From the NCBI RefSeq assembly GCF_014696385.1, contig NZ_JACJQB010000013.1, forward strand, positions 1 to 64,000: a DNA stretch of 64,000 nucleotides, in the 5' to 3' direction. Within the stretch, counting starts at the first letter, position 1, and the number at the start of each line of letters is the position of its first letter. This document shows positions 46,422 to 60,748 of this stretch, one piece after another. The position numbers and the translations under genes were made by a program. The DNA is from Pseudanabaena mucicola FACHB-723 (GTDB lineage: Bacteria > Cyanobacteriota > Cyanobacteriia > Pseudanabaenales > Pseudanabaenaceae). The notes under the pieces were generated by a model. That model was not told the origin of the DNA and did no database searches. It was given only the letters and a program-made list of their open reading frames with translations.

Positions 46422-47198
46422 CTAAGAAGCTATTGACCTCACAGCTACCTTGTTAGCACTGAGATACTCTTTGATTTCTGCGATCGTCAACTCCCCATAG
46501 TGCAACAACGAAGCTAATAATGCTGCTTCTGCTCTTCCTTCCGTTACTGCTTGCAAAATATGCTCACAATTCCCTGCACCACCCGATGCAATTACAGGAA
46601 CTTCCACTAAATCCGCAACCTGACGAGTGAGTTCAAGGTCATATCCCGCCTTAGTGCCATCGGCATCCATACTCGTTAGCAAGATTTCCCCAGCACCACG
46701 CTTGACGACTTCCTGCGCCCACCACAACGCATCAATGCCTGTGTTCTCTCTTCCACCGCGTACATAGACATCCCAACCGCGATTATGCGGATCATTTCTC
46801 CGCCTTGCATCAATAGCAACGACAATGCACTGATTTCCAAAGCGATCGCTACTGCGATTAATTAGGTCAGGATCATTTACTGCGGCAGAATTCATGCTGA
46901 CTTTATCTGCACCCGCCCGCAACAGTTCACGAATATTGTCGAGATTGCGAACCCCACCCCCTACGGTAAGCGGAATAAATACTTGCTCAGCAGTGCGATA
47001 AACCACATCTAAAATTGTGCCGCGATCTTCATGGGTCGCTGTGATGTCGAGAAATACCAATTCATCAGCTCCCGCAAGGTTATAGACTTGTGCTAGCTCT
47101 ACTGGATCGCCAGCATCCTTGAGATCGACAAAGTTTATCCCTTTGACAACCCGACCTGCTTTTACATCCAGACAAGGCAAAATGCGTTTTGCTAGCAT
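46422..47198 (-). CDS. hisF: Imidazole glycerol phosphate synthase cyclase subunit HisF
   Basis: HisF (258 aa) forms the IGP synthase with HisH and makes imidazole glycerol phosphate and AICAR in histidine synthesis. The half-barrel repeats are visible. Asp11 lies in [14 protein letters not shown] and Asp130 in IVVAIDARR; the phosphate-binding loops include VGGGVRN and ASGGAG. GAAGAG lies about 8 nt before the ATG. Length is normal. hisH is not next to it. Confidence 0.96.
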
Positions 47199-47263: not shown

Positions 47264-50200
47264 TTATTTGGCAAGTGCTATGGTTTTGATTTCAGGAAAA
47301 ACTAACGGCTCGGTCAGAGTTTGATGCATATTGCCGATAATCGCTTGCAAATATACCCTTAGCTGTTGGAACTTGACCATATTCGGTTGGTATGTGCCGT
47401 CGGTTTCTAGATCAAATAATCGACCTGTAAACAACTCATTGCCAAGGGTTGGGTCTTCCAGAATTACCGAACTTTCTGGCTCTTGCCAAGGAAATAAACC
47501 TTCGGGCAAATCTCCTTGCAAAATGCTCAAAATGCGATCGCGACAGGTTTTAATATTGACTCCGCGCATTTGTAATTGCTGAAGGAGTTGATTAGGATTG
47601 ATGGCTTGATTGAGGTTGAGGCGACAGATTTCTTGCAAGAGAAAGTAATCTGAATATTGCTGACGCGCCACATCTTGCAACTGTGGATAGAGCGGTGCGA
47701 CCGCTAACCCATTTGCCACTGCCGAAGTAGCTAGGGGATCAATCTTGGCATTGGGTAATTTTTGGGCTAACCAACGCGACAGTAAAGGAATCTGCATGGT
47801 GCTGCCCAACAACAAAACCTGTTGAACATCTTCACCAAGGATGCCCGCATTGCTGAGAATCGAATTAAGTTCACGGTTAATCCTTTGCATAAAGGGTTGC
47901 AAAATCAAATTTTCGACTTCGCGACGCAGCACCACGATCGGTTGCCCCATTAAGTCTTCATTCCAACTATCAACTCCTACATCTCTGCCAAAGGCAACCT
48001 TAACGCGATCGGCAAGTTCTAACATCTGCTGTCCAATCGTCGAACTTAACAAATATTGCTGAAGCAGTATGCGTTGCTGTGGTGCTGAAGTCCCGACTTC
48101 TGGCAAACTGAGCTGATCAAAATTGCATAGATGACGATTGGGATTGGTAATTAACTGCCAATGGGGATAAAACAGTTGCGTCACGATATCTTGACTGAGG
48201 CTGATTCCTGCATAGTCAAGGCTGCGAACATGCAGTTTAGAGCTATCTCTGCCATTATCTAAGCCTCTGCTCAAGCAAATGCTGGTTGTCACTGCTCCTG
48301 CATCGATAAATAGCGTAATTTCCTTGGCAATTTTGCGATTATGCAGCAAGGACAATGCAGGAGCGATCGCCTGCTCAACCGCAAGAATCTGCTCAGCATG
48401 ACTGACTAGCCCTGCATGTAAAATTGCTTCACGGACATTGAGAATATAGGTGTCTGACCAGTTACTGGGGTAGTTAAACACTACACCACTGAGTTTGAGC
48501 AAAATCAAACCAAGGTCAGGCAATTTGGGATGATTGGCACGGGTTTGGATTTGCTCTAGTAAACTCTTCAGGGCAGTAAGTAACCAGCGCATTGATATTT
48601 GATAGGAATTAGACCATTGAATAATTGGTTGCCAAACACTCACGCCGCGATAGGGTAAGCCCAATTTGAGCAATTGTTTGAAATGGCTGAGGACAATTTC
48701 GCCATGGTCGAGGTCAGGATTTTGCGATCGCTTTGGCAGTACACGCACATCCTTTGTGATCGGATCATCGAGGCTATGTTCCTCATTCCAGACCACTTTG
48801 CAGAGTATCTCATCAGAATCATCCAGATACAGAGAATATACTCGCCCCGTATCTGCATTCAGTAAGCTTGCCCTTATTGCACTACTACCAATATCAATAC
48901 CCAAAATCCAATTGTCATCAAGACTATACACTTCGTTTTCAGGAGGGGCTGGTATGAGTGCCACACTTTCTGATTCCAAAACGAGCGAGTCAATGTCTAA
49001 AACGTTCTCGCTTGTGTCGCTAATGGGCGCAACTGAGGATAAACCGAGTTGTTCACGCTGATCGTCTAGCAATGGCTCATTAAAGCTAAAGGTGCTTAAG
49101 TCCTTGAGCAACTTATCCCAATCACTATCAATGGTTTCGGTTTGATTATCCCCATGGGCATCAGCAAACTCATTGAGTATTGAATCTTCTTCCTCTTCTT
49201 CGGGCTTATCGGTGGGGACGAAGTTAATCAAATCTGCGATCGCATCCAGTAATAATTCCGATGATTTACTGTCGCCACTATCGGTAACATTGGCAAAATT
49301 ATTTAACTTTTCCTCCTCTAAAGAAGCGAAAAACTCTTCAGCCGATAAATCAGTTGCCGATTTGTCTTGCTTTCTACGCCCATCACCACTACTCGTCGGC
49401 TGCGATGTAGAAATTTCCACAACATGATTCGTAGTTGATGGCTGATTAAATCCCTGCAAAATTGTATCTAGTTCTTCTAAATCTTCCGAAATTTCAGTAA
49501 CTGGCTCCGCAAAAGACAAAGGTGTAGTGATCGTATCCGCACTGGTATCTAGATCTGTATCTTCATCTCCAGACATCTGTTGCATTGATGTGTCAGCTTC
49601 TCCTAAATAATTGAAATTATCTAGACTATTATGCGTATCAAATTCCATCAAAAGAGTGTCAATTTCATTGTCGCCACTGGAACTCAGATTGGAAGCTCTC
49701 TCTGTATCAAGATCTGCTGCTGCTTGTGATTCATCTTGAAGAGACTGCAAAAATAACGAGTCTAGTTCATCATTAACTTCAAAGGGAACTGATGGCGAGT
49801 ATTTCGCGGCATTTTCGGCAATCACTTCTGCAAAAATAGCGTCCATATCATCATCCTTAGCTTCAGAAACCACAGAAGTTTCTTCTAAGGAAATTTCAGG
49901 CAATCCTTCTGATATGTCTGGCTCATTGACAGTTTCTAATTCCTGTACATCTGATAAGTTAGAACTTGTAGAACTATCAAAAACGATAGGAATTTCCTCT
50001 ATTTGTGATTTAAAGGGTGACAACTGCAAGTCTTCAATGTTGACAACAATTTCTGATTTTGCGCCACTTTTATCTAGGGAAGAGTCGGCAAAGCTATCAA
50101 TCGATAGATTATCCTCAACCACGGATGGTGAGGATACATCATCCGTAATCGTTTCAGATGCTGTGGTATGTCCATTGGTTTGCTGGGCTGCGACTTCAAT

Positions 50201-52375
50201 AATCGGTGAGAATGCTTTCGGTTCTGCATTGCCCCAATCAGTTAATGCGTAAGGCGTATTGCGAATGAATTGATCTAGATTATCGGTAATTATGGGATCG
50301 GCAATCATGCCTGCATCTAGTCGTTGGAGATCGGAGCTTAACTCATTTACTAGTGAATCTTCCCAAGTGGATAGTTCCACATTTTCATTATCTTGACTAG
50401 CCAATAAGATGAGTGACTCGTCATCATCCCTTGTCGGTTCTGTAATAGTTTCTTCTAGATCCGTTGTCAGCTCTGAGAGTTTGATGGGCGTTGTCTCTTC
50501 TGGAGTAGAGATTTTGCTGATATCAACAGATTGATTCCCTAGCCACAACAGCAGGTCTTCATCGGCTGATACTTCCGCAATATTTACGCTGTCAGTCGTT
50601 TGATTACTATTTGCTTCTAGCCACTGGAGAAGTTGAGGATCGTTGATTTCCTCGGTATTGGTACTCAATTCTTCCGCAGGAAAATTTACAGCTAATAAGT
50701 CGATATCATTAGGATCTTTTGCTAATGAGCTTAACTCTTCAAATTTCTCAACTATTTGTGTCGCTGCTTCTAGATCAAAGTCGGGATTCATCTCATGGGC
50801 TGAGATTGCACTCTGATAGTCGGGAATTGACTCGGTTGCAGCTTTGTCTGCATCCACTAGCAAGTCAGCAAACCCTCCCAATTGATGACTTTGGATGCCC
50901 AAGACATCGGTTTGAGGAGTTAGGTACTCATCGGCGCTATCGGTTATAGAATCATCTGGCTCTGGATGTGACTCTATAGTTACAGTCTCAACAATATCTA
51001 GCCCGTCTCTGGGTTTCTCCATGACAGGAGCGCTATGCTCATTGCCGCTTTTGTCGCTGCTTTTGTCTAGGGCATCATTAGTTTCAATAGGTTCATCGAC
51101 TACTTCCTGTTCTTCAACGATGCTTTCACCAAATTGATCGCCAGCTAGGAGCGCATTGATGAGGTTTTCGTCAGCAGGCTCTGTAAAAGTCTCTAAATAC
51201 TGAATAGGAATTTCATCAGGCAATTCAGGTAATTGATCAGATAACGGGATGCTTGGAGACTGTAACTCAAGTTGTTGCTCATGTTGACTAATCCGTGCAA
51301 CTAAAGTGTTGATTAATTCCTCTCCCTTTTGCTCAAGGGTTTCCATATGCCCAATTTTTGCCGTAATCGAGGACTGATAGCCTTGAATCTCCTGCTCTAA
51401 CGATCGAAATGTTGAGTTAAACATTTGATCTAGTTGCAACAAAAAGCGATCAGTTTGTTCTTGGACTTTGCTAACAAACTCGGCAGATGGGGGATTAACC
51501 TCAGATATGCTTGGATTAGTTACACTAGAGTTCGCGGTAGACAATTGAGCAAGATTATCTTGGAGTGTTTTCGCAACTGTCTGATTAACGCTATCAGTGA
51601 CCCTGAGTGCCATTGTTTCCTGTAAGCTGTCAACGGACTGCAACGAGCGATTTAATGATTCTTGCTGCGTCGACTGAAATTCCTTGAACTGCTGCATCCA
51701 ATTGGCGCGATCCAGCTCTAGTTGGGATATTTCATCACTTAGCTTTTGCTTTTTGTCGTTTAAATTAATTAATTCTTGGTTTATTTGCGATCGCTGTTGT
51801 GACTCGATAAATTTATTCAGGTTTGCCGAGATTTCCCCTACCATCAAGGCTCGCTCTACCGCCAAAGTTTGGCTGACAACCTGCTGGATTGATTGCTGTA
51901 CTGACTCTTTGACAACTTGTTGCAATGTCTGTTGAATGGCTTGCTGAAGCGAAGCAATCATCCGATCATTGACCAGCGTAGAATCTGGCTCAGATATGCC
52001 ATTTGTCATTGTGCTAGTCTCCTTTGTCAAGTTAGATTCGGCATCAAATAAGTTGCTAATTAATGGCGCAACTAATGGCGGAGGGGACATTTCTAGTTTA
52101 TCTGCTTTAAATATGTCTGTACTTAGCTCGGTACTGCTTGGCTGGGCATTTGCATATATTTGCACTTGTAAGCGTTGAACTAAAGCCTGATATTGCTGAT
52201 CTAAGCTACCGACATACGCGTCATCAGTTAAAGTCTCAAGTTGCGATCGCAATTGCTTTAACTGTTCTCTTTGATGCACCGTATCTGGAGATACATGCCT
52301 AGATACCGAACCCACTGGGCGGCGTAGCAATGTATTAATTTCATTGATCAAATTGTTAATCAGGACTTTTGACAT
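47264..52375 (-). CDS. Giant protein: coiled coil, long acidic linker, Hsp70/actin-like ATPase domain
   Basis: This 1703-residue protein has no family name I can give. Residues about 1-130 are polar. About 135-300 form a Gln-rich coiled coil (IQQTLQQVVKESVQQSIQQV and onwards). About 370-1130 are acidic, Ser/Asp/Glu-rich and probably disordered. About 1150-1560 form an Hsp70/actin-type nucleotide-binding fold: phosphate 1 loop ILGIDIGSSAIRASLL, phosphate 2 loop LFIDAGAVTTSICL and adenosine loop VLLLGSTMQIPLLSRWL. A helical C-terminal tail follows. It has neither a DnaK substrate-binding domain nor a signal peptide. GGAAGGG lies 7 nt before the ATG. It is monocistronic. It may couple an ATPase switch to a scaffold or filament; that is inference. 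Confidence 0.7.
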   Translation of the reverse strand: MSKVLINNLINEINTLLRRPVGSVSRHVSPDTVHQREQLKQLRSQLETLTDDAYVGSLDQQYQALVQRLQVQIYANAQPSSTELSTDIFKADKLEMSPPPLVAPLISNLFDAESNLTKETSTMTNGISEPDSTLVNDRMIASLQQAIQQTLQQVVKESVQQSIQQVVSQTLAVERALMVGEISANLNKFIESQQRSQINQELINLNDKKQKLSDEISQLELDRANWMQQFKEFQSTQQESLNRSLQSVDSLQETMALRVTDSVNQTVAKTLQDNLAQLSTANSSVTNPSISEVNPPSAEFVSKVQEQTDRFLLQLDQMFNSTFRSLEQEIQGYQSSITAKIGHMETLEQKGEELINTLVARISQHEQQLELQSPSIPLSDQLPELPDEIPIQYLETFTEPADENLINALLAGDQFGESIVEEQEVVDEPIETNDALDKSSDKSGNEHSAPVMEKPRDGLDIVETVTIESHPEPDDSITDSADEYLTPQTDVLGIQSHQLGGFADLLVDADKAATESIPDYQSAISAHEMNPDFDLEAATQIVEKFEELSSLAKDPNDIDLLAVNFPAEELSTNTEEINDPQLLQWLEANSNQTTDSVNIAEVSADEDLLLWLGNQSVDISKISTPEETTPIKLSELTTDLEETITEPTRDDDESLILLASQDNENVELSTWEDSLVNELSSDLQRLDAGMIADPIITDNLDQFIRNTPYALTDWGNAEPKAFSPIIEVAAQQTNGHTTASETITDDVSSPSVVEDNLSIDSFADSSLDKSGAKSEIVVNIEDLQLSPFKSQIEEIPIVFDSSTSSNLSDVQELETVNEPDISEGLPEISLEETSVVSEAKDDDMDAIFAEVIAENAAKYSPSVPFEVNDELDSLFLQSLQDESQAAADLDTERASNLSSSGDNEIDTLLMEFDTHNSLDNFNYLGEADTSMQQMSGDEDTDLDTSADTITTPLSFAEPVTEISEDLEELDTILQGFNQPSTTNHVVEISTSQPTSSGDGRRKQDKSATDLSAEEFFASLEEEKLNNFANVTDSGDSKSSELLLDAIADLINFVPTDKPEEEEEDSILNEFADAHGDNQTETIDSDWDKLLKDLSTFSFNEPLLDDQREQLGLSSVAPISDTSENVLDIDSLVLESESVALIPAPPENEVYSLDDNWILGIDIGSSAIRASLLNADTGRVYSLYLDDSDEILCKVVWNEEHSLDDPITKDVRVLPKRSQNPDLDHGEIVLSHFKQLLKLGLPYRGVSVWQPIIQWSNSYQISMRWLLTALKSLLEQIQTRANHPKLPDLGLILLKLSGVVFNYPSNWSDTYILNVREAILHAGLVSHAEQILAVEQAIAPALSLLHNRKIAKEITLFIDAGAVTTSICLSRGLDNGRDSSKLHVRSLDYAGISLSQDIVTQLFYPHWQLITNPNRHLCNFDQLSLPEVGTSAPQQRILLQQYLLSSTIGQQMLELADRVKVAFGRDVGVDSWNEDLMGQPIVVLRREVENLILQPFMQRINRELNSILSNAGILGEDVQQVLLLGSTMQIPLLSRWLAQKLPNAKIDPLATSAVANGLAVAPLYPQLQDVARQQYSDYFLLQEICRLNLNQAINPNQLLQQLQMRGVNIKTCRDRILSILQGDLPEGLFPWQEPESSVILEDPTLGNELFTGRLFDLETDGTYQPNMVKFQQLRVYLQAIIGNMHQTLTEPLVFPEIKTIALAK

Positions 52376-60681: not shown

Positions 60682-60717
60682 TAGCTTCTTATAACAACAT
60701 AGCTTCTTATAACAACA
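60682..60717. repeat. 18-nt tandem repeat upstream of glgB
   Basis: TAGCTTCTTATAACAACA occurs twice in direct succession (60682-60699 and 60700-60717), followed by a further TAGCT that begins the flank of the palindrome at 60749. It is a short local duplication. Confidence 0.8.
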
Positions 60718-60748
60718 TAGCTCCAGCCAGTTAAGTTAGGACAAAAAC

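Follow-up and report, generated by a model that had tools for sequence, protein, structure and literature searches.

What kind of system is encoded by a single gene whose product joins a coiled coil, a very long acidic stretch and an Hsp70-like ATPase domain? The gene, of 1703 codons from its ATG, lies on the minus strand of contig NZ_JACJQB010000013.1 of Pseudanabaena mucicola FACHB-723, within the 64,000-nt stretch of DNA analysed here (the window); the layout of its product is given in Table 1. A preliminary description, made from the letters of the window, had seen in it a candidate for an undescribed structural or condensate-forming system. The reading that we favour, held tentatively and a little short of even confidence, is that of a cytoplasmic, septum-associated multimeric scaffold with an attached nucleotide switch.

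The chain and its acidic region

Table 1. Features of the 1703-codon gene (positions in the window; residues of the product)
Feature	Position	Strand	Basis or remark
Whole ORF, 1703 aa	47264..52375	-	Starts with ATG, preceded by a GGAGG-like stretch
Residues 1-75, helical-type segment conserved at the N-terminus	52151..52375	-	Recognisable in many relatives and in ATPase-less forms
Residues 136-275, Gln-rich coiled-coil-type region	51551..51970	-	Composition, BLAST
Residues 296-371, coiled-coil module in common with SepJ-type permease proteins	51263..51490	-	Sequence matches
Residues 372-1139, acidic region, predicted disordered	48959..51262	-	Composition, within-genus alignment, structure model
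Residues 395-414, conserved island of the acidic region	51134..51193	-	Within-genus conservation
Residues 669-712, helices predicted at 669-706 and an island conserved at 699-712	50240..50371	-	Alignment, structure model
Residues 843-859, conserved island with predicted helix	49799..49849	-	Alignment, structure model
Residues 1101-1134, conserved stretch immediately before the nucleotide-binding domain	48974..49075	-	Alignment
Residues 1154-1568, Hsp70-type nucleotide-binding domain	47672..48916	-	AlphaFold and fold searches
Residues 1159-1165, phosphate-1 loop GIDIGSS	48881..48901	-	Sequence and alignment
Residues 1358-1363, phosphate-2 loop DAGAVT	48287..48304	-	Sequence and alignment
Residues 1569-1703, conserved mostly helical tail domain starting QYSDYFLL, in the position of the Hsp70 substrate-binding domain	47267..47671	-	

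The ORF is not a chance frame, since its Pseudanabaena orthologues, of 1357-1896 aa, match it along the chain. Among the best 80 of its 132 relatives, the nearest named ones are Pseudanabaena and one Phormidium tenue record, and all 80 named loci bear cyanobacterial titles. The whole chain is covered by no Pfam or NCBIfam family above its cut-off, in agreement with the earlier statement that no named family has this layout; the profile search that had been named as a check likewise placed the whole chain in no characterised family. The Gln-rich character of the coiled coil (15% Gln in residues 136-400) was also as described. The roughly 750 residues of acidic, low-complexity sequence are real as well (residues 401-1150: Asp+Glu 24%, Lys+Arg 4%, net charge -150) and are predicted to be disordered, with the refinement that they hold short conserved islands, some of them predicted to be helical. 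Among 18 sequences from within the genus, identity is 0.16-0.59 per block of 50 over residues 401-1100 and 0.82-0.92 in the islands. A structure model of residues 660-1703 has a mean pLDDT of 69, mostly about 30 in the acidic region, where it places helices at 669-706, 843-858 and 1012-1021; the first two overlap conserved islands.

Short motifs recur in other lineages too. An FTLExxxDLF-type motif, for which the pattern was drawn up after viewing the same sequences, was counted 21 times, spread over 13 of the 67 acidic regions, as against 0.2 expected from shuffles, and an ASPEEDLL-type island profile matches 47 of 87 N-terminal parts, with no match in Pseudanabaena. In Scytolyngbya sp. HA4215-MV1 the acidic partner (L127:5844-9947) carries a DUF4912 domain inside its acidic region.

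On the contig, hisF (46422-47198) lies 65 bp downstream of the ORF on the same strand, and of 19 Pseudanabaena-type loci, in the orientation used there, 9 have the hisF cluster after the gene. At 60682-60722 there is a short tandem repeat, perfect, with a period of 18 and 2.3 copies.

The Hsp70-type domain and its tail

AlphaFold prediction of residues 1132-1703 from 74 alignment rows gave a mean pLDDT of 90.8 and a pTM of 0.92. The best PDB match of the predicted domain by Foldseek is DnaK (E 2e-15), and a second structure aligner gave Z scores of 24.0-25.7 (rmsd 3.3-4.5) for ranks 1-9, with DnaK reaching 25.7; among the matches listed, 50 for each fold search, all are Hsp70-family entries, Hsp110 and Ssz1 included. 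In the predicted structure residues 1154-1568 fold as an Hsp70 nucleotide-binding domain, so that the structure prediction which the preliminary description had named as a check came out in favour of its domain assignment. By sequence, the C-terminal part scores 17.4 bits against the HSP70 Pfam model, below the cut-off of 20.6, and finds DnaK weakly in a search of the PDB (E 0.004); the whole 1703-aa chain has no HSP70 match at E 0.1. The alignment sets were A1 (24 of 30 extracted domains), A2 (73 of 79, plus the 1703-aa member) and A4 (33 chosen rows).

An actin-like filament protein of bacteria, comparable to FcmB or MreB, would belong to the same fold superfamily, and weak PilM_2 matches do occur in 21 of the 74 alignment rows, as against 24 for HSP70. 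The listed fold matches are nevertheless Hsp70-family throughout, though such a list excludes nothing, and FcmB, which is like our protein in being an actin/Hsp70-superfamily ATPase frequent in filamentous cyanobacteria, differs in being ParM-like and paired with FcmC, according to passages of PMC12645912. We consider an actin-like filament protein very improbable, and FcmB was rejected as the identity of the ATPase on the ground of its ParM-like character.

Equivalents of the Hsp70 active-site residues were placed by way of the Hsc70 and DnaK sites together with the alignment, and the usual Hsp70 phosphate-2 motif is DLGGGT. The nucleotide loops that had been called recognisable are indeed so: besides the phosphate-1 and phosphate-2 loops of Table 1, the phosphate-1 Asp is present in 69 of the 74 rows, the Lys in 68, an acidic residue at connect-1 in the form of Glu (59) or Asp (10), and one Gly of the adenosine region in all 74. 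The position of the phosphate-2 Asp is occupied by Asp in 24 rows, Ser in 25, Asn in 21 and three other residues, with one gap; the Asp is thus replaced in 49 of 73 family rows. The 1703-aa protein (Asp1358) and its Pseudanabaena counterparts retain the Asp, and most other rows have lost it. The altered phosphate-2 loop had led to the suggestion that hydrolysis may be changed; this appears to fit the family better than the 1703-aa member, in which loss of hydrolysis seems less likely because the Asp is retained.

It had also been said that no substrate-binding domain follows. The C-terminal substrate-binding domain is absent in the predicted structure, as claimed; in its place, however, stand about 135 mostly helical residues that are conserved across the family and start with a nearly invariant QYSD[YF]FLL. 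In four genomes of one family without hetR (L186-L189, in G383, G347, G353 and G271), the copies are diverged or shortened and have no QYSDYFLL tail.

The likeness to Hsp70/DnaK (PF00012), Hsp110 and Ssz1 thus lies in the nucleotide-binding fold, the phosphate-1 loop, the Lys and the connect-1 acidic residue, while the 1703-aa protein differs in having no substrate-binding domain, DAGAVT for DLGGGT, a tail of its own and a score below the Pfam cut-off. Part of what makes the family worth attention is an Hsp70-type domain without the substrate domain of a chaperone, most relatives being also without the usual phosphate-2 Asp. One might see in this a co-chaperone, in which a low-hydrolysis ATP-binding domain like that of Hsp110 or Ssz1 is combined with a polyanionic disordered chaperone for basic clients and the coiled coil just oligomerises. 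The presence of Hsp110 and Ssz1 among the fold matches, the loss of the phosphate-2 Asp in those 49 of 73 rows and the tether's net charge of -150 all suit such a protein; the family-specific tail domain in place of a substrate-binding domain, the SepJ-type module and the persistence of ATPase-less orthologues (both described below) speak against it, and we regard it as unlikely.

An Hsp70/J-domain pair at the septum by way of ZipN was considered and then set aside as evidence. Passages of PMC6391411 report that ZipN has an N-terminal DnaJ domain and interacts with SepJ, and that its chloroplast homologue is thought to be independent of HSP70. The ZipN/ARC6-like gene of this genome (G000:C5:72315-74447) shares a contig with the 1703-codon gene, at a distance of about 20 kb and about 8 kb past the end of the window. 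Residues 1-90 of its product contain no HPD, and the eight Pfam DnaJ matches do not include it.

A coiled-coil module in common with SepJ-type proteins

The proposed link of the protein to the septum comes from its coiled coil. A 77-position module that includes residues 296-371 is present in 48 of the 60 fused and 25 of the 27 split N-terminal parts of the family (defined below) and was not found in 14 of these 87. The module is matched at E 1e-5 in 234 of the 388 genomes of the class. Its second copy in the P. mucicola genome is part of a 577-aa protein that also has a Pro/Ser-rich stretch and an EamA permease, the same architecture as that published for SepJ, namely coiled coil, linker and permease (passages of PMC12096826 and PMC5623728). 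Direct BLAST between the 1703-aa and 577-aa proteins gives a weak match (28.6% over 63 residues, E 4e-6), and FxxL, Tyr and QGE positions are common to both. All 15 genomes that were examined singly have exactly two copies at E 1e-5, one in the Hsp70-like scaffold family, without a hydrophobic segment, and the other in a protein with 6-11 hydrophobic segments, as counted by a crude script and not a topology predictor. Real module segments score a median of 60 bits, as against at most 17.6 when reversed and 9.6 when shuffled. An EamA match is present in 9 of the 10 permease-type module proteins scanned, the tenth being cut off by the end of its locus. In G126, G154 and G196 the module of the permease-type gene lies about 3 kb from hetR; in Anabaena, sepJ is adjacent to hetR. 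It is by architecture and position, and not by a database name, that the second copies are taken to be SepJ.

Judged from these sequence comparisons, residues 296-371 are homologous to the coiled coil of the SepJ-type septal protein over about 65-77 residues. In both SepJ (FraG) and the present protein this module is followed by a low-complexity stretch, and both are frequent in hetR-bearing lineages. SepJ continues with a Pro/Ser/Thr linker and a permease of the EamA drug/metabolite exporter type, whereas the 1703-aa protein has a long acidic region and an Hsp70-type domain, no hydrophobic segment by the same simple script-based scan and no EamA match in the Pfam scan. Passages of PMC12096826 and PMC5623728 describe SepJ as important for filament integrity and cell-to-cell exchange, while its exact role and the membrane side of its coiled coil have been questioned there. 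A widespread protein with the SepJ module and no membrane segment bears directly on that sidedness and makes the family a candidate SepJ partner; because the coiled-coil module is in common, SepJ is the best guess for the protein's neighbourhood or partner.

With only some 65 residues in common, and coiled coils being versatile, the protein could instead organise the cytoskeleton or the poles and have nothing to do with septa, its module being an all-purpose bundling coiled coil that SepJ also has by coincidence. That the module is found just twice per genome and once per protein in the 15 genomes, where many other coiled coils must exist, and that the FxxL, Tyr and QGE positions recur in both proteins make this rather improbable, and we keep to the septal scaffold. 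The earlier proposal of an undescribed structural system is in any case plausible, with the homology of the SepJ-type module and an orthologous family in many cyanobacteria behind it.

In the class search the C-terminal domain family was found at E 1e-12 in 223 of 388 genomes (23 of the rows listed being above 1e-60), including all 38 of the host's own family, the Pseudanabaenaceae. Among the 350 genomes outside it, 161 have both the ATPase family and hetR, 12 the family only, 33 hetR only and 144 neither, an association that shared ancestry confounds. Twelve genomes outside the Pseudanabaenaceae with E weaker than 1e-16 had been dropped before this count as probable other Hsp70 paralogues; in three of them that were inspected the ends are like those of ordinary Hsp70 paralogues. 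Since 33 hetR-bearing genomes are without it, the ATPase is not needed in all filamentous lineages. Passages of a genome survey (PMC3141437) give hetR in all 12 filamentous and two unicellular strains. In our search hetR had no match in the 20 Pseudanabaenaceae genomes listed among those without one, and no member of that family stands in the list of matches; hetR is therefore an imperfect marker of the filamentous habit.

Fused, split and ATPase-less relatives and the A-run junction

The N-terminal part and the ATPase domain are not always in one ORF. From 98 loci analysed for neighbours, some of which are the same place twice, 87 N-terminal parts were obtained; 60 of them continue into the ATPase domain as a fusion, and 27 have an upstream ORF of their own, with the same strand as the ATPase. 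BLAST connects the coiled coil of the 1703-aa protein to the split upstream ORFs (best E 3.8e-14), and a tree built from 74 ATPase domains, of which 45 are fused, 20 are split and 9 are of unknown state, requires at least eight changes between fused and split. In addition, four of the 33 hetR-bearing genomes without the ATPase were opened for synteny (L194-L197). Each encodes a protein of 346-429 aa that has the N-terminal segment as well as the module and no long acidic part, located between a divergent CRP-type gene and genes of sugar-transferase and phosphatidyltransferase clusters; the ATPase, the long acidic tether and the A run described below are jointly absent in all four. The repeated joining and splitting, the A-run junction and this joint absence are arguments for regarding scaffold and ATPase as a single system.

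At split loci, A9-A11 frequently stands at the end of the upstream ORF, with a stop within a few codons and the ATPase frame open across the run. A run of at least seven A's is found in the last 90 nt of the upstream ORF in 23 of 33 split loci (two of which are the same place twice), with the ATPase frame open in all 23. Within 480 nt before the ATPase domain, a run of at least nine A's is present in 36 of 78 loci outside the Pseudanabaenaceae, the other 42 having none, and in 0 of 31 inside, membership having been assigned from kinship labels and the tree; the background is two such runs in 881 other ORFs (893,529 bases) of the same loci. The 1703-codon gene has no run of six A's or more and is permanently fused. 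Among fused genes an in-frame A run lies at most 110 codons from the domain in 11 of 71, with one more at 117 codons, and for 10 of the 12 a stop follows within two codons in one of the two alternative frames. On the tree, the A-run rows change between fused and split at least six times.

These junctions predict, by sequence, a programmed slippage that would give scaffold alone and scaffold-ATPase in many relatives. The RNA polymerase of bacteria slips on runs of nine A's or T's, a property used in Thermus dnaX (passages of PMC5009743 and PMC3711429). The likeness to dnaX is that the A9-A11 run at the frame junction would give a short and a long product; the difference is that slippage is only predicted here and that the 1703-codon gene has no run. 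If the prediction is right, some ten A's would set the share of scaffold that carries the ATPase, as in the two Thermus dnaX products. The run might also reflect phase variation by replication slippage, or homopolymer sequencing error, in which case one form, fused or split, would be the intended one: at the run, Microcoleus vaginatus HSN003 (split) differs by one base from Microcoleus FACHB-61 (fused), and homopolymers are hard to sequence. Against this, the run is retained in many diverged loci whichever frame the genome shows, and no ATG or GTG precedes the ATPase domain in 14 of the 22 distinct A-run split loci (six have an ATG), as against one of the nine split loci with no run by the 90-nt rule (eight have an ATG). 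TTG was not counted; the nine include L158, with masked bases, and L052, both of which have a run by a wider window, and the Fisher values for the contrast are 0.015 and 0.0038, related loci not being independent. Phase variation or error strikes us as unlikely, and programmed slippage is retained in what follows. In the passages of open-licence literature consulted, neither the family nor slippage in it is described, and no protein other than SepJ is described with a SepJ-type coiled coil.

The septum-associated scaffold would then work as follows. Through its N-terminal SepJ-type coiled coil the protein may form bundles, and pairing of this coiled coil with itself or with SepJ probably targets the protein to septa or poles. 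The acidic tether would present its short helical motifs, and the Hsp70-like domain with its own tail would bind ATP and act as a slow or non-hydrolysing clamp on tether motifs or partners. In many relatives the A10 run would set the ratio of scaffold alone to scaffold-ATPase by slippage, and in Pseudanabaena the two are permanently fused. It is possible, though distinctly more doubtful, that filamentous cyanobacteria have in this family a second SepJ-type system, a soluble acidic scaffold at the cytoplasmic side of the septum in which RNA-polymerase slippage on A10 sets the proportion of an Hsp70-like switch for ATP-dependent gating or remodelling of the junctions, frozen as a fusion in Pseudanabaena.

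Outside Pseudanabaena the family gene is often divergent from a CRP/FNR-family gene (41 loci, among them L108, L115, L137 and L164-L181). Control by CRP through TGTGAN6TCACA was rejected, the exact box being present in 0 and a one-mismatch box in 1 of the 41 intergenic regions scanned. Next in these loci come a DUF2232 gene, one that weakly matches a phosphoribosyltransferase, and a small gene of coiled-coil-like type; CyDiv (all2320) was rejected as the latter, being 197 aa with a transmembrane segment according to passages of PMC4748335, unlike the neighbour of about 125 aa. In the P. mucicola genome itself, a UvrD/Rep-type helicase gene (L082:5397-8777, on G000:C1) starts with a copy of the N-terminal segment of the 1703-aa protein, 48% identical to residues 1-154, and looks as if the 5' end of the 1703-codon gene had been captured.
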